Of a DNA stretch of 64,000 nt, positions 4,546 through 42,442 are shown piece by piece. The translations under genes were made by a program, and so were the position numbers. Every line of letters starts with the position of its first letter. The first letter of the stretch is position 1. The notes under the pieces are model-generated. The model had not been told where the DNA came from, searched no databases, and was given only the letters and a program-made list of their open reading frames with translations. The stretch is taken from contig AP017959.1 in assembly GCA_002356215.1 (NCBI GenBank), positions 1,938,195 to 2,002,194 on the forward strand, written 5' to 3'. This DNA is from [Synechococcus] sp. NIES-970. GTDB taxonomy: Bacteria; Cyanobacteriota; Cyanobacteriia; Cyanobacteriales; MRBY01.

Positions 4546-5661
4546 ATGAGCCAAATTCCCCCCGTTGATTTAGGGCGACAGTACGCAACCATTGCCGAAG
4601 CAGCCAATGCCGCTGTCCTAGAAGTGCTCAGTTCCGGTCGCTATATTGGGGGGAGTAGTGTCACAGAATTTGAAAACCATTTCGCTCAATATCACCAAGT
4701 CGAATACAGTGCTGGGTGCAACTCGGGGACTGATGCCCTATACCTAGCACTTAAGGCCCTTGGGGTCACCGCTGGGGATGAGGTGATCACCTCCACATTT
4801 ACCTTCATTGCCACCGCCGAAGCGATTTGTATGTGTGGAGCGACGCCTGTTTTTGTGGATATCACCACTGAAACATTTAACCTCGATCTTGACCAGGTGG
4901 AAGCGGCCATTACCCCCCGTACCAAAGCTGTGATCCCAGTGCATCTGTTTGGTCAGCCTGTGGATATGACTCGCCTGGGGGCGATCGCCCAAAAACATGG
5001 CTTATATATCGTCGAAGATTGTGCCCAAGCGACAGGGGCTAAATGGGGCGATCGCCTGGTGGGTTCTCTAGGAGATATCGGCTGCTTTAGCTTTTTTCCG
5101 ACGAAAAACCTTGGGGGATGCGGCGATGGCGGCGCGATCACAACCCATCGCCGTGACCTTTATGAAGCCATTAAAATGCTGCGAGAACATGGCTCAAAAA
5201 TTCGTTACCAACATGAAGTGATGGGGGTCAATAGCCGCTTAGATGCCCTCCAAGCCGTCATTCTCGACATTAAATTGCGTCACCTCGACCAGTGGAATCA
5301 GCAGCGTCAGGCGATCGCCAAAAACTATGACTTCCTCCTCAGCGATGTCCCAGGGATTCAACGGCCCCAAGCGATCCCAGGTGGAACCCATGTCTGGAAT
5401 CAATACACCCTCCTGCTCAAGGCCAAAGAACGAGATACATTGCGCCAAGAGCTCTTGGCCCAAGATATTATCACCATGGTCTACTATCCCAAACCCCTAC
5501 ATCTCCAGCCTGTCTTTGAAGACCTAGGTTACCAATCCGGACAATTTCCCTTGGCTGAGCAATGTTCCCATCAGGTCTTGTCCTTACCGATGTTTCCCGG
5601 CCTCACACCCTCCGAACAAGAACGGGTTGTGGCTGCTCTCAAGGAACAATTGACCGTCTAG
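4546..5661 (+). CDS. DegT/DnrJ/EryC1/StrS family PLP-dependent aminotransferase
   Basis: The 371-residue protein has the DegT/StrS fold. Landmarks are [47 protein letters not shown]-type sequence around residues 105-140, [10 protein letters not shown], and the cofactor-binding lysine in [16 protein letters not shown]. A substrate-side segment ([20 protein letters not shown]) follows. These enzymes transaminate nucleotide-linked keto-sugars for surface polysaccharides. No other sugar gene is adjacent, so the product sugar is unknown. It is divergent from the FetB-like gene, sharing a short promoter region of about 90 bases. Confidence 0.88.
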   Translation: [371 protein letters not shown]

Positions 5662-5754
5662 TGAAGATAGGCAATAAAAAAGCCCAGATAATCAATCCCT
5701 TGACGATCCAAGCCTCCAACAAAATTCTGTAGTTTATTCAGCCTAGGCCGATCA

Positions 5755-6033
5755 CTATTTCGGTGCAACCATTTCCTTAAACTGTTTCCCCGCAGAAAAC
5801 GCAGGTACAGTAGTAGCCGGAATCTGCATTTTTTCGTTAGTTTTCGGGTTGCGTCCCTCTCTTGCTTTACGGTGGCGAGGTTCAAAGGAGCCAAATCCAA
5901 CCAAGGTCACCTTATCGCCATTGGCTACGGTTTCCATAATTGCTTCTACGGTGGCGCTAATCACAGAATCTGCTTGTTTTTTGCTGATACCAGCTTTCTC
6001 AGCAACTAAATCGACTAATTCGCCTTTATTCAT
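5755..6033 (-). CDS. HU family DNA-binding protein
   Basis: A 92-residue protein starting MNKGELVDLVAEKAGISKKQADS and carrying the HU signature GFGSFEPRHRKAREGRNPKT, ending in PAFSAGKQFKEMVAPK. HU dimers bend and compact DNA in the nucleoid. The frame stays open upstream, but the ATG at 6033 with a GGAG-like purine stretch just before it matches the start of every HU protein. Confidence 0.95.
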   Translation of the reverse strand: MNKGELVDLVAEKAGISKKQADSVISATVEAIMETVANGDKVTLVGFGSFEPRHRKAREGRNPKTNEKMQIPATTVPAFSAGKQFKEMVAPK

Positions 6034-6300
6034 TAAAAATCTCCTGAATTTTAGATATTGTGAGAAGTATAGGTAAAAAAACCAGGCAAAACAAGGATTC
6101 CAGAAGAGGTATTTTGCACTGTTGCGGCTCAAAAGTATCTTGTTGCAAGGTTTTCCTGCATTATTCTAAGCGTTCTTTGCCCAATATGGATCGCTGAAAG
6201 GGTTAATTTACATAGATTTCAACAATTTTTCTGTTTCAAAACTTCAAAAAAAAGATCCAAGGCTCAAAAATTTGTCCAAGGCTGCCATGATGAACAATCA

Positions 6301-7461
6301 TCAAGTTTGATTATTTTGAGAATTATGGACAGCAACAGGGGACGTAATTCCAGTTCCCGAAGGGACTACAGGTGCAGCTTTCATCTTGATATAGAGATTG
6401 TCGAGTAGTACTGCTGTTCCGGCGACCCAGGGAGGAACAATTACTGCCCCTAAAATGCCAAGAACCTGGGCTCCACCCAGCACCGCTAAAAGTTGGTAGA
6501 GAGGATTTACTTTTACAGAAGAGCCCACTAGGAGCGGATCGAGCACATAGGTTTCGAGATTTTGGATAATGACAAAGAGTAGAAAGACAGATAAAAACGT
6601 CCAGCCTCCCTGGGCAACGGCAACGATTAAAGCTGGAATTGCTCCTAACACAGGCCCAAAAAAAGGAATCAAATTAGTCACAGCGGCAATCACTCCGAGG
6701 CCGAGGGCCAATTCTGAAATACCGAGCAATCTTAGGCCGATGGTAATTACAATTCCCAAGATTCCCGAAACAACAATGCGACCCTGGATGTAGCTTCCCA
6801 TTCGTTCGCTCATGGGCTGTACCTGGGCCAGTAATCTCTCATCCCAGGGAGCCGGAAATAAACTCACAAAACCTTGGATTAACTTATTAGACCCCGACAG
6901 CATGTAGCCCGACAGCATAAATGCGAGAATCAAGCTCAAAATACCGCCAATTACCCCCCGTGTAATGCCATAGGAACGAATGAGAAGTTCTTGGGACGAC
7001 CGGAAGGCCCAGGCTGTTAGAGCTTGCACATCAAAAAGACGATTGAGCTGTTCCAAAACTTGAGGCTCTGTCATGCCAAGGCGTACAACCCAGGATTGGA
7101 CAAGCACACCAAGAATTTCTAGATACAGTGGGAGTTTTCGGATCAACCGTTGAATCTGATCAACCACCGTTGGGCCGATGAGGAGCACCACCCCTGTGAA
7201 CAGGGAAACAAGACTCAGATAAACACCAATTACCGCCAACCATCGAGGAATCCGAAAAGATTCAGCGATTTTAATCACTGGGGCGAGGGTTGAGGCGATC
7301 ACAATGGCAATCATCAACACCACAAGTAAACTCCGTAACTGCCAAAGCAGAAACAGTAAAAGGACTGCCCCCACAATAAGTAGCAGCGTTGAAAAGGGAA
7401 CTGTAATTTTGCGCTCAGACATACCGAAGTTCACTATTGATTGATCAAAGGCTTTTTCCAT
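6301..7461 (-). CDS. AI-2E family transporter (putative permease)
   Basis: The 386-residue membrane protein has the AI-2E/YhhQ-PerM layout: paired N-terminal helices (about residues 20-60), a helix near 75-100, an amphipathic stretch, then a run of C-terminal helices with the landmark LIPFFGPVLGAIPALIVA and LETYVLDPLLVGSSVKVNPL. Family members have been linked to export of autoinducer-2, and some to Na+/H+ antiport; substrates in cyanobacteria are not defined. It lies just downstream of psaB on the same strand but beyond a terminator, so it is probably a separate unit. Confidence 0.82.
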   Translation of the reverse strand: MEKAFDQSIVNFGMSERKITVPFSTLLLIVGAVLLLFLLWQLRSLLVVLMIAIVIASTLAPVIKIAESFRIPRWLAVIGVYLSLVSLFTGVVLLIGPTVVDQIQRLIRKLPLYLEILGVLVQSWVVRLGMTEPQVLEQLNRLFDVQALTAWAFRSSQELLIRSYGITRGVIGGILSLILAFMLSGYMLSGSNKLIQGFVSLFPAPWDERLLAQVQPMSERMGSYIQGRIVVSGILGIVITIGLRLLGISELALGLGVIAAVTNLIPFFGPVLGAIPALIVAVAQGGWTFLSVFLLFVIIQNLETYVLDPLLVGSSVKVNPLYQLLAVLGGAQVLGILGAVIVPPWVAGTAVLLDNLYIKMKAAPVVPSGTGITSPVAVHNSQNNQT

Positions 7462-7536
7462 TGTCAGGGTAAAACCAAAAGAATGTCACAGGGGTGAAGC
7501 AGTTTTCTGAATGCTTTCGCAAATTAACCCCCATAA

Positions 7537-7569
7537 CAAAACCCCCTGCCTTAGAGACAAGGGGTTTTG
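7537..7569 (-). terminator. Probable terminator of psaAB
   Basis: A nine-pair inverted repeat (CAAAACCCC at 7537-7545, GGGGTTTTG at 7561-7569) with a 15-base loop lies just after the psaB stop on the minus strand. The downstream T-tract is weak, so termination here is likely but not certain. Confidence 0.6.
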
Positions 7570-7606
7570 AAGTTTAGCTAGTTAACTAACAGCCCAGGCT
7601 GCAACA

Positions 7607-9808
7607 TTAACCAAACTTGCCTGATGTCGAAGCAATCAGGAAGGCAGCATAGGTAAGGACATAGCCCACAGTGAAGTGTGCTAGGCCGACCAAACGAGCC
7701 TGAACGATGGAGAGAGCAACGGGCTTGTCCTTCCAACGAACGATGTTCGCAAGGGGAGTACGCTCGTGCGCCCAAACGATGGTTTCGATCAGCTCTTGCC
7801 AGTAACCACGCCAAGAGATGAGGAACATGAAACCAGTTGCCCAAACGAGGTGTCCGAAGAGGAACATCCAAGCCCAGACGGAGAGATTGTTTACACCGTA
7901 GGGGTTATAACCGTTGATCAACTGTGCAGAGTTTGCCCAGAGGTAATCACGGAACCAGCCCATCAGGTAAGTGGAGTTTTCGTTGAACTGAGCAACGTTT
8001 CCTTGCCAAATGCCGAGGTGTTTCCAGTGCCAGTAGAAAGTCAACCAGCCCAAGGTGTTCAGCATCCAGAACATGGCGAGGTAGAAGGAATCCCATGCAG
8101 AGATATCGCAAGTACCGCCACGACCGGGGCCGTCACAGGGGAAGCTGTAACCGAAGTCTTTCTTGTCGGGCATCAGCTTAGAACCACGGGCATCCAAGGC
8201 ACCTTTGACCAAAATCAAAGTGGTGGTGTGGAGACCGAGGGCGATCGCATGGTGAACGAGGAAGTCACCAGGACCGATGTTGAGGAAGAGAGAATTAGAA
8301 CCACTATTGATGGCATCTAACCAACCAGGCAGATAAGCTGCACCGGTGCCAGAAGCAATGCTGTCAGCGTTGGAGAGCAACACATCAAAGCCATAGAGTG
8401 CTTTACCAGAAGCCGCTTGGACAAACTGCGCAAACACAGGCTCGATGAGGATTTGCTTTTCAGGGGTTCCAAAAGCAACTACAACATCGTTGTGGACGTA
8501 GAGACCGAGGGTATGGAAACCAAGGAAGAGAGATACCCAGCTAAGGTGAGAGATCAGCGCTTCTTTGTGTTCCAGCATGCGATAAAGAACGTTGTCTTTG
8601 TTCGCTTCGGGATCGTAGTCACGGACGAAGAAGATTGCACCGTGGGCAAACGCACCAACCATCAAGAAACCAGCGATGTACTGGTGGTGAGTGTAGAGCG
8701 CTGCCTGGGTGGTGTAGTCCTTCGCGATGAATGCGTAGGAAGGCAAGGAGTACATGTGCTGTGCTACCAAGGAGGTAATTACACCCAAGGAAGCAAGCGC
8801 CAGACCCAACTGGAAGTGCAGGGAGTTGTTGACGGTATCGTAAAGACCCTTGTGGCCAGCACCAAGTTTACCGCTGGGGGGCTGGTGGGCGTTGAGGATC
8901 TCTCTGATGCTGTGACCAATACCGAACTTGGTGCGATACATGTGACCCGCGATGATGAAGATCACGGCGATCGCCAAGTGGTGGTGTGCAATATCAGTGA
9001 GCCACAGGGACTCAGTCTGAGGATGGAAGCCACCGAGGAAGGTCAGAATCGCAGTACCAGCACCTTGGGAAGTCCCAAATACATGGCCAGCAGTGTCAGC
9101 ATTCTGGGCATATACACCCCAATTCCCGGTAAAGAATGGCATCAAACCAGCGGGGTGGGGCTTCACAGAGAGGAAGTTATCCCAGCCGACATGGACACCG
9201 CGAGACTCAGGAATCGCAACGTGGACCAAGTGACCAGTCCAAGCCAAAGAACTTACACCGAACAAACCAGCCAAGTGGTGGTTGAGGCGAGACTCAGCAT
9301 CCTTGAACCACGCAAGGCTAGGACGGAACTTGGGTTGCAAGTGCAGCCAGCCTGCGAACAAAAACAGAGAAGAAAGGATCAGGAGGAATACTGCGCCTTG
9401 GTAAAGGTCAGCGTTGGTGGTCATCCCAATGGTGTAGAACCAGTGGTAAACCCCGGAGTATGCGATGTTTACAGGGTTAGAAGCACCCGCTTGGGTAAAG
9501 GCATCAATGGCGCCCTGACCAAAGTGGGGATCCCAGATCGCGTGGGCGATGGGACGGATATTCAGGGGATCTTTGATCCACTGTTCGAAGTTGCCTTGCC
9601 AAGCAACGTGGAAAAGTGTACCGGAAGTCCACAGGAAGATGATTGCGAGGTGACCGAAGTGGGACGCGAAGATCTTTTGGTAAAGATTTTCCTCTGTCAT
9701 CCCGTCGTGGGTCTCGAAATCATGCGCCGTGGCAATTCCGTACCAAATCCGACGTGTAGTGGGATCTTGAGCAAGGTCTTGGCTAAATTTTGGAAATTTA
9801 GTTGCCAT
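7607..9808 (-). CDS. psaB: Photosystem I P700 chlorophyll a apoprotein A2
   Basis: The 733-residue protein is PsaB, one of the two reaction-centre subunits of photosystem I in the thylakoid membrane. It carries most of the antenna chlorophyll and half the ligands of the P700 pair and of the Fx cluster. It begins [22 protein letters not shown], contains many His-rich helices (for example [20 protein letters not shown]), and has the Fx-binding loop [18 protein letters not shown] at about residues 557-574. Length is normal. It follows psaA on the same strand with a 164-base gap. A small hairpin covers the GGAG upstream of its start (see 9819-9830). Confidence 0.99.
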
Positions 9809-35999: not shown

Positions 36000-36024
36000 A
36001 AAACCCCAGAATCACTTCAGGGGC
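36000..36024 (-). terminator. Terminator of rpmI-rplT
   Basis: On the minus strand CCCC-T-GAA and TTC-T-GGGG form a seven-pair stem with one T:T mismatch and a four-base loop, followed by six T residues. It lies about 40 bases after the rplT stop. Confidence 0.7.
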
Positions 36025-36063
36025 TTATATTTAGCAATTCTTTGCTCTTTATGATGCCATAAC

Positions 36064-36414
36064 CTAGGCAGCTTTGGCGGCTTCGACGACCTTAGCAAAT
36101 GCCTGAGGATCAACAACCGCTAGTTCAGCAAGCATCTTACGGTTGATCTCGATATTGGCTTTCTTCAGCTGACCAGTCAGTTGACTGTAGGACAAACCAT
36201 TGAGCCGGGCAGCCGCATTGACCCGGACAATCCATAAACGACGAAAATCGCGCTTTTTCTTCCGGCGATCGCGGTAAGCATTCCGCAATGCCTTCATAAC
36301 CTGCTGATTTGCTGTGCGGAAGAGCTTGGAATGAGAACCCCGGAAGCCTTTCGCTAACTTAAGAATTTTTTTACGACGCTTACGGGCGACGTTACCGCGC
36401 TTGACTCTTGGCAT
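36064..36414 (-). CDS. rplT: 50S ribosomal protein L20
   Basis: The 116-residue basic protein [43 protein letters not shown] is L20, an early 23S rRNA-binding assembly protein; [32 protein letters not shown] follows. It lies 79 bases after rpmI. The usual partner infC is not next to rpmI. Confidence 0.98.
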
Positions 36415-36493
36415 AGGAAGTTACCTAATATTTTCAGTAAAAATAAAACTTTGTTTCAGGACGATGGACGATGTCAGAACTATGGCTAGAACC

Positions 36494-36697
36494 CTAGGCG
36501 TAGGGAAGCATTAGGCGGACATTTTTTTCATCTGCTTTGTCTACAAGGGCCATTCCAGACAGACGACGGTGCTTCTGTTCTGCGCTCTTGTGATCGAGGA
36601 GGTGATTCTTGAACGCTTTGCGGCGCGCGATTTTCTTGCCGCTACCAGTCAGCTTGAATCGCTTTGCAGCAGCGCGGCGGGTCTTGAGTTTAGGCAT
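36494..36697 (-). CDS. rpmI: 50S ribosomal protein L35
   Basis: The 67-residue protein [46 protein letters not shown] is L35. It is the first gene of the rpmI-rplT pair. infC does not precede it; a 706-base AT-rich region does. Confidence 0.98.
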
Positions 36698-37403
36698 ATA
36701 AATATCTATAAATCGACACAGCTTACAATATTACCCTGTTTACGCCAAATTCTTCAAGAGGGCGTAAGTGGCCTAGGTATATTGACTCTGTCTGGCAGAA
36801 ACTTAACGATCAACCAACGAATAAGACGCAGGTGAAAGTGATTTCTCGTACCTAGAGGATGTCTGAAAAGGGTCTAGCTGTGGCCTTTTTTGAGATCATT
36901 TCAACGGTGAAATCAGGGTTTCAGCAGATTTATCCAGTGAAAACCATCTGACTTTTCATCTGGGGTCAGGACTTTTTTGGCGTCCTCCTAAAAGACTTAA
37001 GCCAGAAGGATAGTCACAAAAGTGACTTGAATATCAAGTTTCACTTGAGGCTTTTATTTTCTTGACATTGACAAACTTCAAGGACAACTCAAACTTAATA
37101 GCCTTAGCATCTCTTATTGGCGCCTTAGAATACAAGCCATGCAGATAAATGTCAATTGTCCTTAATGCAATACCTTTAAAGGTTTTGTGAAATTTCCGTG
37201 AAGAAGCTTTTGATTATGAAGAATCCATTAATGTTTTTTCATCGATTTGTCTTTTGAAATTATTATGCAGAAGTGTTTATGTAAGGTCACTAAAAAAATT
37301 GCCAAAACATATCTCAGTATGAGTAGCTCAAGTCACCAAGAGCACTTTCTAAAACTGCATTGCTTTGAGATATTAATCATGATTATTTAGGTGTGTAGAC
37401 TTT
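36698..37403. other. Long AT-rich intergenic region with two hairpins
   Basis: About 700 bases between divergent rpmI and the 790-residue gene. No supported gene. Two imperfect hairpins are visible on the plus strand: 36934-36963 (CCAG..GAAAA pairing with TTTTC..CTGG) and 37021-37046 (AGTGA-CTTGA pairing with TCAAG-TT-TCACT). An AATCATGATT palindrome at 37375-37384 lies about 20 bases before the next gene. There is no HIP1 octamer in the whole stretch. It could hold a small RNA or a long regulated leader. Confidence 0.45.
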
Positions 37404-39776
37404 ATGGTATGGAAACTGAGTTTCTGGCAATCAATTTCAAAAGCGGCTTTATTGCTCGCCTTGGCCCTCTTAAACAACCCAAAAACCCAGGCATCAGAAT
37501 TTGTATTGTTAGATGAACGAAATCCGACTAACTTTGTAGAATTAGAGACTGTAGATAATTTAAAAGCACAGGCTGAAGTCGGGGAAAGAAACTCAGGAAA
37601 TCCAGGTGCAGTTGACGAATTATTAGAAGAGTTGCTGTTAGAAGGCCAGGTAGGAGAGGCGCCTATTGAAGATGTTGATTCATCAGTTTCAACAGATCCC
37701 GAAGAGGATGCTGAAAGTAGGTCAACAGAAGATAACAGCGATTTAGAGGAAGAACTTGAAACCCCTCTTCAGACGGTTGGCGATGAACGTGTTCAAGCAA
37801 GATTGACAAGATTTATCCTCGATGGCAGCATTTATTCACACTTGTCTAACTGGGGAGTGAGTTCATCAGTTACATCAGCTGATGAATCTATTAACGATAC
37901 CGGCTTCAGTATTTTTAAAAAATTAGATTCAAGTATAAAAGTAGGACTAACAAAAGACAATATTCTTATCACAGATTTTAATGGTATTTACACAAGATTA
38001 AGTACGGCATTAAGATCGCGGGAAGTTGAAACGAATATAGATGTCCCTGTTAATTTATTAGGCTTTCGTCAGCGTATTACGATCACGGGAGATTGTGGCC
38101 CTCTAAATTTAGAGGGAGATGAATGCAGTTTTCTGCCACCACTACAATTTGAAGGCTATGATGATAGCCTAATTCCCACTAGACTGTCTCTCCGAGAAGA
38201 TTGGGTTCCTCTTTTCGGTGAAGTCTCTCCCGAAACACTTGAATTTATTAAGCAACCAGGATTTCAGCAAGGTCTGCCAGGTGAAGAATTGGGTCTTGAT
38301 ATCCTAGTTCCTAATGCCGGTTCTTTTGAAGATACATCCCGGAATAGGGTTGCATCTAGATTTGAGGAAACCGATAACGCTGTCACGTTTAGTCTGAATC
38401 ACGTTCGACAAGTTCTCAAGCAAAATTATCAAGAAGCAGTTTTAGGCCGTACCATTCGAGGAGTTAATGTAATTTCGGGAGATGAAGATGCAGCTTTAGA
38501 TACAGTAATTCAGCTGGCAACTGCTTCATGGCTGCCGGATGCTAATCCATCTATCGAAGGTAGTGATCGCCCTTTTAATCCAAGGATTAATGACAATCTC
38601 TTTAAGGCAGCCAATGGGGTTCGGCTGCCAGTCAATAGCTACACTTCGTATCAAGTTGGCGTTGCACGTGCAGCAAGTATTTCAGATGAATTGGCGGCAA
38701 ACCCAAACCCGGCCCAAGCACCAGAAGGGCGATCGCATTATTTATGGATGGGTCTGTCTCCTGTTATTAATCGATCCTTTGAAGTGACTGCTTCTGGAAA
38801 CACATTTAAAGATGTAGGTTCTTTTACGCCGATTTTCTCATTTGAAGCAGAAGCGGGTCAGGCAAATTTTGGTTCTAATCAACCTGGTTTAGGAGGATTA
38901 GAAAATGGTGTGAATAATATCAATAATGTTGAAGTTATTGGTAACATTCTCGGCAATACAATCACTGATCTTCAAGGTGCTTATGTACAAATTGCATTAG
39001 ATATTGGTCTAACTAATGCCACTGCAATTAACACAACTATGTACCGTGAATTGGTTAATTTTGTTCCTCATATTAGCTTCACGGGAAATGTCACTGATTA
39101 CCATACAAATAGAAGATATTATGTCGGTGCTCTCTTCGACTATACCGGTGGTGAATCTGGCCAAAAAATCAATCCTTACATTGGGGCAGATTATAATTTT
39201 GATAATCGTCAAGGTCTGAAAGCATCAACAGGATTTATTGGTTATGCAAATCCAGATCGTGATTACTATAGCCGGGTTTGGGGAAATGTTTCTCAAACTT
39301 TTTCTGGCTCCAGAAGTTCTACAAAAGGGCCCAGCCAAACGAGTTTTACAGTAGCACTTAATGTAGATTATGCTATCGATCAAGAAGAGTCGATTGATGG
39401 CTTGGATGATGAAATTTTTATCGGCTCACGGGGCAGTAAAGTTACCTTAAGTGGAGCGGGACGATTTGGCAGTCTCGTTGCAGGTGTCACCCACAATTTT
39501 GGAAATATCCTTAAGAATTCAGATGAGAGCTATACAAGATTACAAATAGGTACTCAGTTAGGAGAAAAAGTTTCTCTTTCTGGTTATTACACACCTTTTG
39601 ATGAAGGTACTGATGTTGATGTGTATGGTGTTTCTCTGGGGTTCAACCTAGGAGGAAATAATACTGATGCACGAATTTCTCTTGGATGGAACCAGAAAAA
39701 ATATGTTTTTGATTCTAATGACGTCCTTGATAATCGCTATACAATAACTTTCTCTATGGGAGGAAATCGCAGCTAA
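37404..39776 (+). CDS. Probable outer-membrane beta-barrel protein, unrecognised family
   Basis: A 790-residue protein with an N-terminal signal peptide (residues 1-31, core KAALLLALALL, cleavage near TQAS). A very acidic, low-complexity linker follows at about 65-120 (DELLEELLLEGQVGEAP, DPEEDAESRSTEDNSDLEEELETPL). The C-terminal 350 residues show alternating amphipathic strands with Gly/aromatic turns (YYVGALFDYTGGESGQKINPYIGADYNF, VSLSGYYTPFDEGTDVDVYGVSLGFNLGG, YTITFSMGGNRS), typical of a barrel. The middle part (130-420) is a probable soluble domain with two Cys at the GDCGPLNLEGDEC site. No known family was recognised. AT-rich, with only one HIP1 site, so possibly acquired. Confidence 0.72.
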   Translation: MVWKLSFWQSISKAALLLALALLNNPKTQASEFVLLDERNPTNFVELETVDNLKAQAEVGERNSGNPGAVDELLEELLLEGQVGEAPIEDVDSSVSTDPEEDAESRSTEDNSDLEEELETPLQTVGDERVQARLTRFILDGSIYSHLSNWGVSSSVTSADESINDTGFSIFKKLDSSIKVGLTKDNILITDFNGIYTRLSTALRSREVETNIDVPVNLLGFRQRITITGDCGPLNLEGDECSFLPPLQFEGYDDSLIPTRLSLREDWVPLFGEVSPETLEFIKQPGFQQGLPGEELGLDILVPNAGSFEDTSRNRVASRFEETDNAVTFSLNHVRQVLKQNYQEAVLGRTIRGVNVISGDEDAALDTVIQLATASWLPDANPSIEGSDRPFNPRINDNLFKAANGVRLPVNSYTSYQVGVARAASISDELAANPNPAQAPEGRSHYLWMGLSPVINRSFEVTASGNTFKDVGSFTPIFSFEAEAGQANFGSNQPGLGGLENGVNNINNVEVIGNILGNTITDLQGAYVQIALDIGLTNATAINTTMYRELVNFVPHISFTGNVTDYHTNRRYYVGALFDYTGGESGQKINPYIGADYNFDNRQGLKASTGFIGYANPDRDYYSRVWGNVSQTFSGSRSSTKGPSQTSFTVALNVDYAIDQEESIDGLDDEIFIGSRGSKVTLSGAGRFGSLVAGVTHNFGNILKNSDESYTRLQIGTQLGEKVSLSGYYTPFDEGTDVDVYGVSLGFNLGGNNTDARISLGWNQKKYVFDSNDVLDNRYTITFSMGGNRS

Positions 39777-39784
39777 AAAGATCA

Positions 39785-39815
39785 GCTTGCTTTAATGTCT
39801 CAGCAAGTTCTTTTC
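39785..39815 (+). terminator. Possible terminator after the barrel gene
   Basis: CTTGCT and AGCAAG (39786-39791, 39802-39807) form a short stem followed by TTCTTTT, ten bases past the stop codon. Modest strength, so read-through to the next gene is possible. Confidence 0.45.
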
Positions 39816-39877
39816 GGATATACATCGTACAAATAAATACTTACAAAAATCATCCCTTAAATTCTCAGAGAGCTTTG

Positions 39878-40024
39878 ATGCATAGACTCCAAGGGAAATT
39901 AATAGATATCTTTATAATGTTTTTAGTACTGCTATTTTTTGTAGTTTTTGTAAAGATTTTTTCAATTATGAAGATTAAATCAATATTTTTGTCAGTTTAT
40001 TTTTTTGCGCTACCATGTATTTAA
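39878..40024 (+). CDS. Doubtful small hydrophobic ORF (48 residues)
   Basis: An ATG with AGAGAG six bases upstream opens a 48-codon frame: MHRLQGKLIDIFIMFLVLLF and a second hydrophobic stretch near residues 33-47. It could encode a two-helix membrane peptide. However, the region is very rich in T, which produces Phe/Leu/Ile/Val-rich frames by chance. There is no codon-use evidence. It lies between the barrel gene and the small secreted gene. Confidence 0.2.
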   Translation: MHRLQGKLIDIFIMFLVLLFFVVFVKIFSIMKIKSIFLSVYFFALPCI

Positions 40025-40091
40025 TGTGATCTAATAAAGATCATTTATGCCATTTTTTGACAATAGAAATAGAAAAGTAAGGAGTCAATTC

Positions 40092-40541
40092 ATGAATTCC
40101 AAATATCTGGTTTTAGGTGTTGTTGCATCTGGGTTTGCTTTTGTCAGTCCGGCAATTGCTCAGGTTGATATTGGTGCTAGCGTTACTGGGATCACGAATG
40201 CAGCCGCGGCCGTAACATTTACCTCTGATAACACTTTTTTGGGTGAAGGTATCGAAGATGAGTTTGGGGCAGAGGGGATAGCTTATGAGGCCAATGATCA
40301 AGTTTTTGCGGCGAGTGTGGCTTTTGGCACAGAGTCTGCCTACGCATCTGCGCAGTCTGCTGACTATAACTTACTGGGTGGCTTCGCCTTAGTGGGTGAA
40401 GCTTATGCCATTGGTACTAACAGTACCGAGTTCATCAATGATGGTACCGAATTTTTCACAATTAGTGATTATACCGGCGGTGAAAATGAGTTAATTGATA
40501 CCGGCTCTAGTCTTCCTAAAATTACTGTTCCTTCTCCCTAA
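40092..40541 (+). CDS. Small secreted Ala/Gly/Ser-rich protein, unknown
   Basis: A 149-residue protein with a clear signal peptide (MNSKYLVLGVVASGFAFVSP, cleavage after AIAQ). The mature chain is rich in Ala, Gly, Ser and acidic residues, with no Cys and little Lys or Arg: TGITNAAAAVTFTSDNTF, FAASVAFGTESAYASAQSA, GGFALVGEAYAIGTNSTEF. Strand-like repeats of small and aromatic residues suggest an extracellular beta-structured or self-assembling protein. AAGGAG lies seven bases before this ATG, and a strong terminator follows, so it is a real expressed gene. Not recognised; the adjacent barrel protein may be its partner, which is inference. Confidence 0.72.
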   Translation: MNSKYLVLGVVASGFAFVSPAIAQVDIGASVTGITNAAAAVTFTSDNTFLGEGIEDEFGAEGIAYEANDQVFAASVAFGTESAYASAQSADYNLLGGFALVGEAYAIGTNSTEFINDGTEFFTISDYTGGENELIDTGSSLPKITVPSP

Positions 40542-40635
40542 GGTTACTGTTCGTTCTAACTAATTCTCAGTGACTTATTCTATGAACCTTGTTGTTTAAA
40601 TTAAGTCTAATCTAAATCTTAATTGGAGATCTGTG

Positions 40636-40667
40636 AAAGCTAGAGAAAACTCTCTAGCTTTTGTTTT
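40636..40667 (+). terminator. Strong intrinsic terminator
   Basis: AAAGCTAGAG (40636-40645) pairs perfectly with CTCTAGCTTT (40652-40661) across a six-base loop, followed by a T-rich tract TTGTTTT. It ends the small secreted protein transcript. Confidence 0.85.
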
Positions 40668-40795
40668 AAAAAAATGTGTTAAGCATGGGTTCTGGGCTTG
40701 AAGATGAACTTCCATTGGTTTCATCTGCCTGAAATCAAGGCTAAATTTTTGCTAGAGTCGAACGATAACCTCAAATTCTTGATGTAGTCGTTTCT

Positions 40796-42442
40796 ATGAA
40801 GTCTTGGCGATCGCCCTTTATTATCTTCTTTATTACTTGTCTGTTGAGCCTGGGGCTCCAGCGGCCTGGGGAAGCATTTTTCGGCTTACCAATTCCAGAG
40901 GGTAACCTAGAGGGAATTTTACCAACCAATGGCCAAGAGTTAATTGTCGATCGCTGTGTCTACCTCGACGGTCACTGTATTTTTCAGGTAGCGGCACCCC
41001 GGTCGGAGCTTTCAACGCGGCTTAATTACATCCAGACCCAACTAAATCGGGTAAAGCAGATCTATGACAGCCCAGAGATTCCTGAAATTCAAGTCAGGCC
41101 TGTGGGAGATAGTGACACCCCAGGCGCGCAGAATAATATCGAAATCCAAGTTGGAGATGAAGCACCCTTTCGCTTGATGACGGTGACCCGCTGGGATGCT
41201 CAACTGCATGGTGAAGATATTGATAGCCGTACCCAACAACTCATTGATCAAATTCAAGCTGCCCTTACCCAAGCTCAGCGGGAGCGCACCCCCGAATACC
41301 TCAAGGAACAGGGGGCGATCGCCATTGGCATCACCGTTCTAGCGCTGATCCTGAACCTAGTCGGGCGGCGCTGGCGACATCGACTCTATAAACGGCAACA
41401 GTGGGCGATGGAATTTCCGAAAACAGCGACTCCCATTGCCACCCAACTCAGCCAGCGACAAAGCAACAACCTCCAAGAAGTGGAAATGCGCCTCAGTCAG
41501 TTGCTCCAGGGTGGGGCGATCGCCGCTGCCCTTTTTATCAACCTCGGTCTTTTCCCCCAAACCCGCATCTTTCAGGTGTGGTTACTGACGATTTTTAAAT
41601 ATCCCCTCTGGTTGGCACTGATTGCCCTAGTTAGTTATCTATCTGTTCGCCTCAGTTATGCCCTGATCGCCAAGGTGAATCAACTACTTGCCGATGGCGC
41701 TCTCGAAGCATTTACGTTTATTACTCAAGAATCTAACCAACGGCTAGAGCTGCGAGTGCAGACCTTTTCCCAGGTGATGCGTAGCATCGCCACGTTGATC
41801 ATTCTGATCATTGCCTTGCTGGTGTTTCTCTGGTCGATCAACATTGATATTGCACCGATCTTGGCCGGGGCCGGGATTATCGGTTTGGCCGTTTCCTTCG
41901 CCGCGCAAAACTTACTCAAAGACATTATCAATGGCTTTTCAATTATTCTCGAAGACCAATATGCCGTTGGCGATGTGATTAACGTGGGGGCAGTGACAGG
42001 CTTAGTAGAAAATATCAACCTGCGCATTACCCAAATTCGCGATGCAGAGGGGCGTTTGATCACGATTCCGAATGGGGAAGTACGGATCGTGGCTAACCTC
42101 TCAAATCAATGGTCTCGGGCAGATCTCAATATCCCCATTCCCTACAATATTGATGTGGATCTCGCCCTTAAGGTGCTTGGGGAAGTGGCTCAAAAAATGT
42201 ATGAAGAAAAGCAATGGCGATCGCAAATTATTGAACCGCCAATCGTGCTGGGTGTTGACAACTTCAATGAGCGGGGGATGGTGATCAAACTATGGATAAA
42301 AACTCTCCCCCTCAAGCAATGGGAAGTAGCGCGGGAATTTCGGCGACGCCTGGCTATTGCCCTAAACCAAGCAGGGATAACAATTCCTGCACTCCAAAAC
42401 GAAGTCTGGCTCCGCTCCGATGTCCCCCCGAAGCTTGGGTAA
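40796..42442 (+). CDS. MscS-family mechanosensitive channel
   Basis: The 548-residue protein has a signal peptide or first helix (about residues 8-28), a periplasmic domain (40-170), helices near 180-200, 230-255, 265-290 and 320-345, and the pore helix and beta domain: APILAGAGIIGLAVSFAAQNLLKDIINGFSIILEDQYAVGDVINVGAVTGLVENINLRITQIRD. This is the conserved MscS core. It should open on hypo-osmotic shock, which fits a salt-tolerant cell. Function in this strain is inferred. Confidence 0.92.
   Translation: MKSWRSPFIIFFITCLLSLGLQRPGEAFFGLPIPEGNLEGILPTNGQELIVDRCVYLDGHCIFQVAAPRSELSTRLNYIQTQLNRVKQIYDSPEIPEIQVRPVGDSDTPGAQNNIEIQVGDEAPFRLMTVTRWDAQLHGEDIDSRTQQLIDQIQAALTQAQRERTPEYLKEQGAIAIGITVLALILNLVGRRWRHRLYKRQQWAMEFPKTATPIATQLSQRQSNNLQEVEMRLSQLLQGGAIAAALFINLGLFPQTRIFQVWLLTIFKYPLWLALIALVSYLSVRLSYALIAKVNQLLADGALEAFTFITQESNQRLELRVQTFSQVMRSIATLIILIIALLVFLWSINIDIAPILAGAGIIGLAVSFAAQNLLKDIINGFSIILEDQYAVGDVINVGAVTGLVENINLRITQIRDAEGRLITIPNGEVRIVANLSNQWSRADLNIPIPYNIDVDLALKVLGEVAQKMYEEKQWRSQIIEPPIVLGVDNFNERGMVIKLWIKTLPLKQWEVAREFRRRLAIALNQAGITIPALQNEVWLRSDVPPKLG

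Follow-up and report, generated by a model that had tools for sequence, protein, structure and literature searches.

Two adjacent genes of [Synechococcus] sp. NIES-970 form a conserved pair of unnamed families that share one locus in cyanobacteria. The genes lie in a stretch of 64,000 nucleotides, hereafter the window (contig AP017959.1, positions 1,938,195 to 2,002,194, assembly GCA_002356215.1), whose own coordinates are used throughout. The first gene (37404..39776, plus strand) encodes a 790-residue predicted outer-membrane barrel. The second (40092..40541, plus strand) encodes an Ala/Gly-rich protein of 149 residues that, given its alignment, its family composition and a signal peptide recognized by eye, is probably exported by Sec. 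The original prediction, made from the letters of the window, had proposed that these neighbors are partners. This idea is now strongly supported by matching presence and absence in 386 genomes, by shared loci, by correlated divergence, and by a similar small gene in two Cereibacter plasmids. Our leading but tentative interpretation is that the pair constitutes one module, in which the barrel exports or anchors the small protein and the latter assembles on the surface, resembling the Fap system without belonging to it.

Co-occurrence of the two genes

Barrel homologues are present in 11 of 60 related genomes, the window's own genome included. Near 10 of these 11 first homologues lies a small Ala/Gly-rich open reading frame (ORF) with a signal peptide, as judged by eye; in the exception (L021), no partner was seen and the barrel match crosses a stop codon. 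A profile was needed to follow the small protein, because a single-sequence search of the 60 genomes with the window protein found only itself. Across 386 genomes of the phylum, again counting the source genome, the barrel profile matches 15, one of which (G017) carries only a 98-residue remnant. The small-protein profile, which was built from barrel-adjacent proteins and could miss small relatives unlike these, matches 14 genomes, and they are the same 14 that have a full or nearly full barrel match. Near its end, the barrel match in G351 shifts frame, and it includes two stops. Of the 17 small copies in this set, 16 have a barrel no more than 4 kb away; the remaining one (G294) sits on a separate contig in a draft assembly.

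Barrel homologues also occur in named genomes, at 57 loci whose record titles are all cyanobacterial and include Trichodesmium, Planktothrix, Arthrospira, Okeania, Nodularia, and Picosynechococcus. The partner is found in the same locus for 43 of the 48 intact barrels, at a median gap of 362 bp (no more than 500 bp in 31 cases and no more than 1500 bp in 38). Thirty-six of these partners match at E <=0.001, six match at 0.005-0.06 (L035, L037, L052, L065, L068, and L079), and that of L064 was added by eye, whereas a match in L050 (E 0.4) was discarded as spurious. The five partnerless intact barrels all lie no more than 1.7 kb from a contig end, on one side or both. Two of nine broken or partial barrels retain the partner; among the five flanked on each side by more than 7 kb, L067, L080, and L081 are partnerless, and L044 and L062 keep it.

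Across 39 loci, distances among barrels correlate with those among small proteins (Mantel r 0.63, with 0 of 999 permutations as high), a correlation that partly reflects shared host phylogeny. Co-occurrence as neighbors in other cyanobacteria, on which the proposed partnership depended, is thus evident. A literature search, whose reach does not extend to most subscription papers, turned up no title or opening of an abstract that describes the pair.

Predicted structure of the barrel protein

Neither window protein matches a Pfam or NCBIfam family at E 1, and in scans of 46 aligned members each of the barrel and the small-protein family, no known family matches more than two. The best family matches in these 46-member scans, to EntC (7.9e-6), the LED repeat (3.1e-5), and VanF (8.6e-5), involve one member each and were set aside as weak. 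Six Pfam families each match one of the 46 barrels at a cutoff of E 0.1; the match of one barrel to OMP_b-brl is weak (E 0.014). The six do not include the POTRA or ShlB-type domains of TpsB/Omp85 proteins, the plug or barrel domains of TonB-dependent receptors, or the SLH and OprB domains of cyanobacterial porins, which argues against membership in any of these three classes.

An AlphaFold2 model based on the 46 sequences (mean predicted local distance difference test score (pLDDT) 79.5, predicted template modeling score 0.72) consists of a beta-barrel that follows a mostly low-confidence acidic N-terminal stretch. The translation opens with a probable Sec signal peptide, recognized by eye (37404..37496, plus strand). 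The acidic linker then spans approximately residues 32-117 (37497..37754, plus strand), in which most ten-residue blocks have pLDDT 25-49 and one reaches 70. Model and alignment place the barrel domain at residues 118-790 (37755..39773, plus strand). It has 22 predicted strands of at least 8 residues, three of which are very long, at 29-43 residues (188-230, 442-470, and 527-564), and C231 and C241 are invariant across the 46 sequences. The protein therefore has the general marks of an outer-membrane beta-barrel, a closed barrel in the model and in comparisons with the PDB, and a signal peptide seen by eye. The original prediction had described a probable outer-membrane barrel with a long acidic linker that it could not place, and the modeled barrel, the acidic low-confidence N terminus, and the lack of a covering family among the searches of either protein all agree with that description.

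The barrel has generic fold matches in the PDB. OprD-type porins and VDAC (4fso, 3szv, and 4bum) share the general beta-barrel fold, with Z scores of about 14 (14.1-14.8 over 264-277 residues), but the barrel domain here comprises about 670 residues with strands of up to 43 residues, and the identity is 9-13%. Foldseek gives its top ranks to TonB-dependent receptors, TbpA and LptD among them, although at TM-scores of just 0.13-0.25. These ranks are relevant to the main rival explanation, that the barrel is an uptake channel or receptor to which the small protein is added as an accessory subunit, for example as a plug, a lid, or a part that binds the ligand. LptD/LptE and TbpA/TbpB, both outer-membrane systems of two parts, are models for this arrangement. 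Subunits of one complex would match in presence and absence and co-vary in sequence, as these two proteins do, but no TonB-receptor Pfam domain was detected in the 46 barrels at E 0.1.

The small, predicted secreted protein

Without their first 25 residues, the small proteins comprise 18% Ala, 14% Gly, 10% Ser, and 10% Thr, with only 2.2% Lys and Arg together, and just two Cys residues occur across all 46. The AlphaFold2 model is poor overall (pLDDT 62). However, conserved residues 70-109 (40299..40418, plus strand) contain three predicted strands in blocks at pLDDT 81-89 (blocks 71-110), and together with a first strand at residues 36-45, these make a four-strand core. No fold match to the model was found.

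The length of the small protein ranges from 119 to 400 amino acids among loci, and two copies stand beside one barrel in L048, L061, and L069. The 400-amino acid protein of L064 contains a 42-bp (14-codon) unit repeated 9.4 times. Such variation in copy number and length is more in keeping with a structural protein than with a fitted subunit. It therefore tells against an accessory part of a receptor, as does the lack, on inspection by eye, of a lipoprotein box in the small protein. Overall, we regard the accessory-subunit explanation as rather unlikely.

Other matches of the small protein were set aside. Its best match in PHROGs is phrog_2374, a family of unknown function, which is weak (E 0.0014, residues 12-57). 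The small-protein profile also matches the designed PDB proteins Bagel and Scone (best E 1.3e-5), but these alignments are sums of weak repeats and were rejected. Separately, Pro is the last residue in 16 of the 46 small proteins, compared with a Pro frequency of 2.4%, and a C-terminal signal is possible.

Base composition and origin of the locus

The two genes were noticed within a 4-kb stretch (36698-40700) described as AT-rich and nearly free of HIP1 octamers, and measurements bear this out. Its GC content is 0.388, compared with 0.488 for the whole window, and it has a single HIP1, at 38729. Among 600 sliding segments of 4003 bp (step 100), which average 6.9 HIP1 each, only six have one or none, with starts at 36301-36801, and the lowest GC content (0.388) is that of the segment starting at 36801. 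Both minima thus fall on this region. The HIP1-free gap at 36265-38729 is the second longest in the window; the longest (5311-8241, 2930 bp) is outside the AT-rich stretch, which counts against HIP1 scarcity being special there. The stretch begins beside the start of a 67-amino acid ORF (36494-36697, minus strand), rpmI by eye, and ends ahead of an MscS-like gene, recognized by a Pfam scan, that adjoins the pair (40796-42442).

The compositional break is therefore real, but the original term "island" is not supported insofar as it implies recent foreign insertion. The GC content at third codon positions of the barrel gene is lower than that of neighboring genes in 38 of 43 loci (those of the 57 that span at least 9 kb and have a barrel ORF of at least 1.5 kb). 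HIP1 is depleted in barrel ORFs at matched GC content, with 7 observed and 31.1 expected (rate ratio 0.23), in the 26 of 45 ORFs that had enough matched sequence. The barrel tree, judged by eye, largely tracks host groups, with 16 of 36 inner branches unresolved. Low GC content and scarce HIP1 are thus traits of the family across cyanobacteria rather than marks of a recent island.

These results also bear on the idea that two unrelated genes became neighbors by chance in recently acquired AT-rich DNA. The break itself would fit such an origin, as would the finding that in two genomes of the same genus (G004 and G005), no pair separates rpmI from MscS. Yet the pair matches in presence across 14 genomes, shares 43 of 48 loci, and has the same composition bias from locus to locus, so chance is highly improbable. 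The pair co-occurs elsewhere, its GC content and HIP1 density are abnormal, and no well-known porin or pilin family accounts for either protein; the original prediction therefore stands on each of the points most likely to have undone it.

Five ORFs of the DUF4347 type, selected with a six-residue motif, are also poor in HIP1 (1 in 10.2 kb), and HIP1 depletion may be common to surface genes in general.

Divergence and selection

In G004 and G005, rplT, rpmI, a transporter-like gene, and MscS stand in a row, and in G003, the transporter-like gene likewise precedes MscS (names assigned by eye). In Picosynechococcus sp. PCC 7117 (G002), a second pair adjoins the MscS orthologue. The window barrel groups with this MscS-side copy in the tree (Shimodaira-Hasegawa-like approximate likelihood ratio test support 98), although plain identity slightly favors the other PCC 7117 copy (45.4% versus 43.7%). 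The MscS-like gene is kept in G002-G005 at 60-77% identity; its best match in G001, a genome in which only one barrel was found, is just 36% identical.

Between the window and the MscS-side locus of PCC 7117, identity is 77% for MscS, 44% for the barrel, and 28% for the small protein; the pair thus diverges much more quickly than its neighbor. Such divergence between related strains might be expected of an antibacterial or contact-dependent peptide system linked to the surface, in which the barrel acts as exporter or immunity partner. Moreover, the Gly/Ala-rich make-up of the small protein resembles that of the glycine-zipper bacteriocins of Caulobacter, as portrayed in the available part of one report (PMC5380434). 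However, the ratio of nonsynonymous to synonymous substitution rates in six close locus pairs ranges from 0.07 to 0.37 for the barrel and from 0.15 to 0.41 for the small protein, which indicates purifying selection on both genes, and no candidate immunity gene recurs among the 25 largest neighbor clusters. An antibacterial role thus appears very unlikely.

Relatives outside cyanobacteria

The barrel matches ten Cereibacter plasmids. In both plasmids inspected, a small exported ORF lies 105-116 bp upstream of the barrel on the same strand. On plasmid pC of Cereibacter sphaeroides 2.4.1, where the proteins are annotated as hypothetical (WP_011331345.1 and WP_011331344.1), the barrel shares 31% identity with residues 216-664 (E 4e-38). 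The pattern-based scan of named-genome contigs did not return Cereibacter, so its cyanobacteria-only yield is not proof of absence in other phyla. No relatives were found in viral contigs.

The upstream ORF has no significant match to the full-length small-protein profile, and hhalign gave no link either. Nevertheless, a 16-column core motif (46 rows) gives the two Cereibacter upstream ORFs the top two places among 206, and 3 and 15 of 2000 shuffles, respectively, score as well. This test is not sharp: the cyanobacterial L064 itself scores 56 of 2000, and the 16-column block was chosen after a first block with 6 usable rows had failed. The pC locus thus resembles that of the window in having a barrel homologue with a small exported ORF bearing the core motif directly upstream. 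It differs in that an extra small exported ORF follows the barrel. This second ORF contains Cys, is found on both plasmids inspected (L117:9683-10054 and L118:9945-10310), and has no counterpart seen in the window. In C. azotoformans, the cellulose synthase genes bcsA/bcsB adjoin the module.

Genomic neighborhood

In 17 of 63 loci, the vicinity of the barrel includes ORFs from one single-linkage similarity cluster, to which DUF4347 proteins belong. Both cluster members scanned have DUF4347 and RTX repeats, and one also has FG-GAP and cadherin-like repeats; such neighbors suggest a surface role for the pair in that clade. In filamentous cyanobacteria, sigma-70-like genes occur upstream of the small gene (L040:4965-6272, L044:4035-5123, and L031:2597-3199). 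All three have sigma-70 region 4, and two have region 2 above its cutoff.

Perhaps, then, the barrel displays or secretes a larger partner, namely the DUF4347/RTX adhesin-like protein of the filamentous clade, with the small protein as a helper. The order small gene, DUF4347-type ORF, barrel gene occurs in several loci, some with the sigma-70-like gene upstream, as might be expected of such a system. The cluster is near the barrel in a minority of loci, however. It was not found in the same-genus loci L014, L025, and L026 or among the window neighbors scanned, although the small protein is present in all of these. This explanation is accordingly improbable.

Other features of the locus

The small gene can be read as 164 amino acids from an ATG at 40047 or as 149 amino acids from an ATG at 40092. 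The shorter form is the better reading because an AGGAG ribosome-binding site (40080..40084, plus strand) precedes the second ATG and the signal peptide, judged by eye, opens there. Downstream of the gene, folding of 40600-40675 reveals a terminator-like hairpin followed by T-rich sequence (40635..40662, plus strand). None of 200 shuffles of this segment is equally stable (z -3.56), and a consensus terminator scan did not list the hairpin. An AT-rich 56-nucleotide element is found upstream of the barrel gene (37183..37238, plus strand) and again, with 71% identity, upstream of the small gene (39935..39990, plus strand); none of 100 shuffles reaches the score of this repeat. The shared element is suggestive of possible shared regulation. 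No Rfam match was found within 36000-41000.

Comparison with known systems

In curli, a small beta-strand protein is exported through a dedicated outer-membrane pore, and such pores are built from small lipoprotein subunits. The pair shares with CsgG/CsgA the putative combination of an exported small beta-strand protein with a dedicated outer-membrane barrel, but CsgG was not detected in Pfam scans of the window barrel or of the 46 barrels (E 0.1). Neither CsgG nor FapF is among the fold matches shown, a result that excludes neither.

The Fap functional amyloid system of Pseudomonas likewise pairs a Sec-exported subunit, FapC, with a dedicated outer-membrane barrel, FapF, to which it is genetically linked and which has an N-terminal extension and a linker. 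According to the available part of the report on its crystal structure, FapF forms a trimer in which the barrels have 12 strands and a helical plug, and the system depends on the C39 peptidase FapD (PMC5557850). The barrel studied here differs in having 22 predicted strands of at least 8 residues rather than 12. No C39 family was found in a Pfam scan confined to the window flanks (the MscS-like gene and nine further neighbors). Similarly, comparison of the barrel profile with PDB chains up to E 1 gave a single match (6vwa, E 0.14) and thus no kinship to FapF. FapF/FapC may be viewed as the closest working analogue, although its defining features, so far as they could be checked, were not found.

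Proposed function

We infer Sec export of both proteins, passage or anchoring by the barrel, and assembly at the surface. The barrel and the small protein would each cross the inner membrane by Sec. The barrel would then fold into the outer membrane as a dedicated conduit or surface anchor for the small protein, which would assemble by means of its four-strand core to form a structure on the surface or in the matrix. Such a module would work as FapF/FapC do, although its barrel is much larger and no sequence relationship was detected. A role in secretion, surface adhesion, or extracellular assembly, as originally suggested for the pair, would fit this scheme.

Several observations weigh against the scheme. 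With a poor model and no fold match for the small protein, a fiber or amyloid state is a guess, and no internal repeats are apparent by eye in the window protein. The generic PDB matches of the barrel do not indicate any export machine. In addition, the DUF4347 neighbor that hints at the surface was found neither beside the window pair nor in most loci. A more specific possibility, which we consider doubtful, is that the pair represents an undescribed export and surface-assembly system of cyanobacteria and Rhodobacterales. In such a system, a large barrel with over-long strands would export an Ala/Gly-rich beta protein and template it into a surface layer or matrix fiber.

Little is known about the construction of the cyanobacterial surface and biofilm matrix, and many cyanobacterial proteins predicted to be secreted lack an assigned function, as noted in the available part of one article (PMC11424642). 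A two-gene module of unnamed families offers a small, testable unit for cyanobacterial surface biology, and the copy in Cereibacter sphaeroides 2.4.1 provides a second, tractable host for its study.

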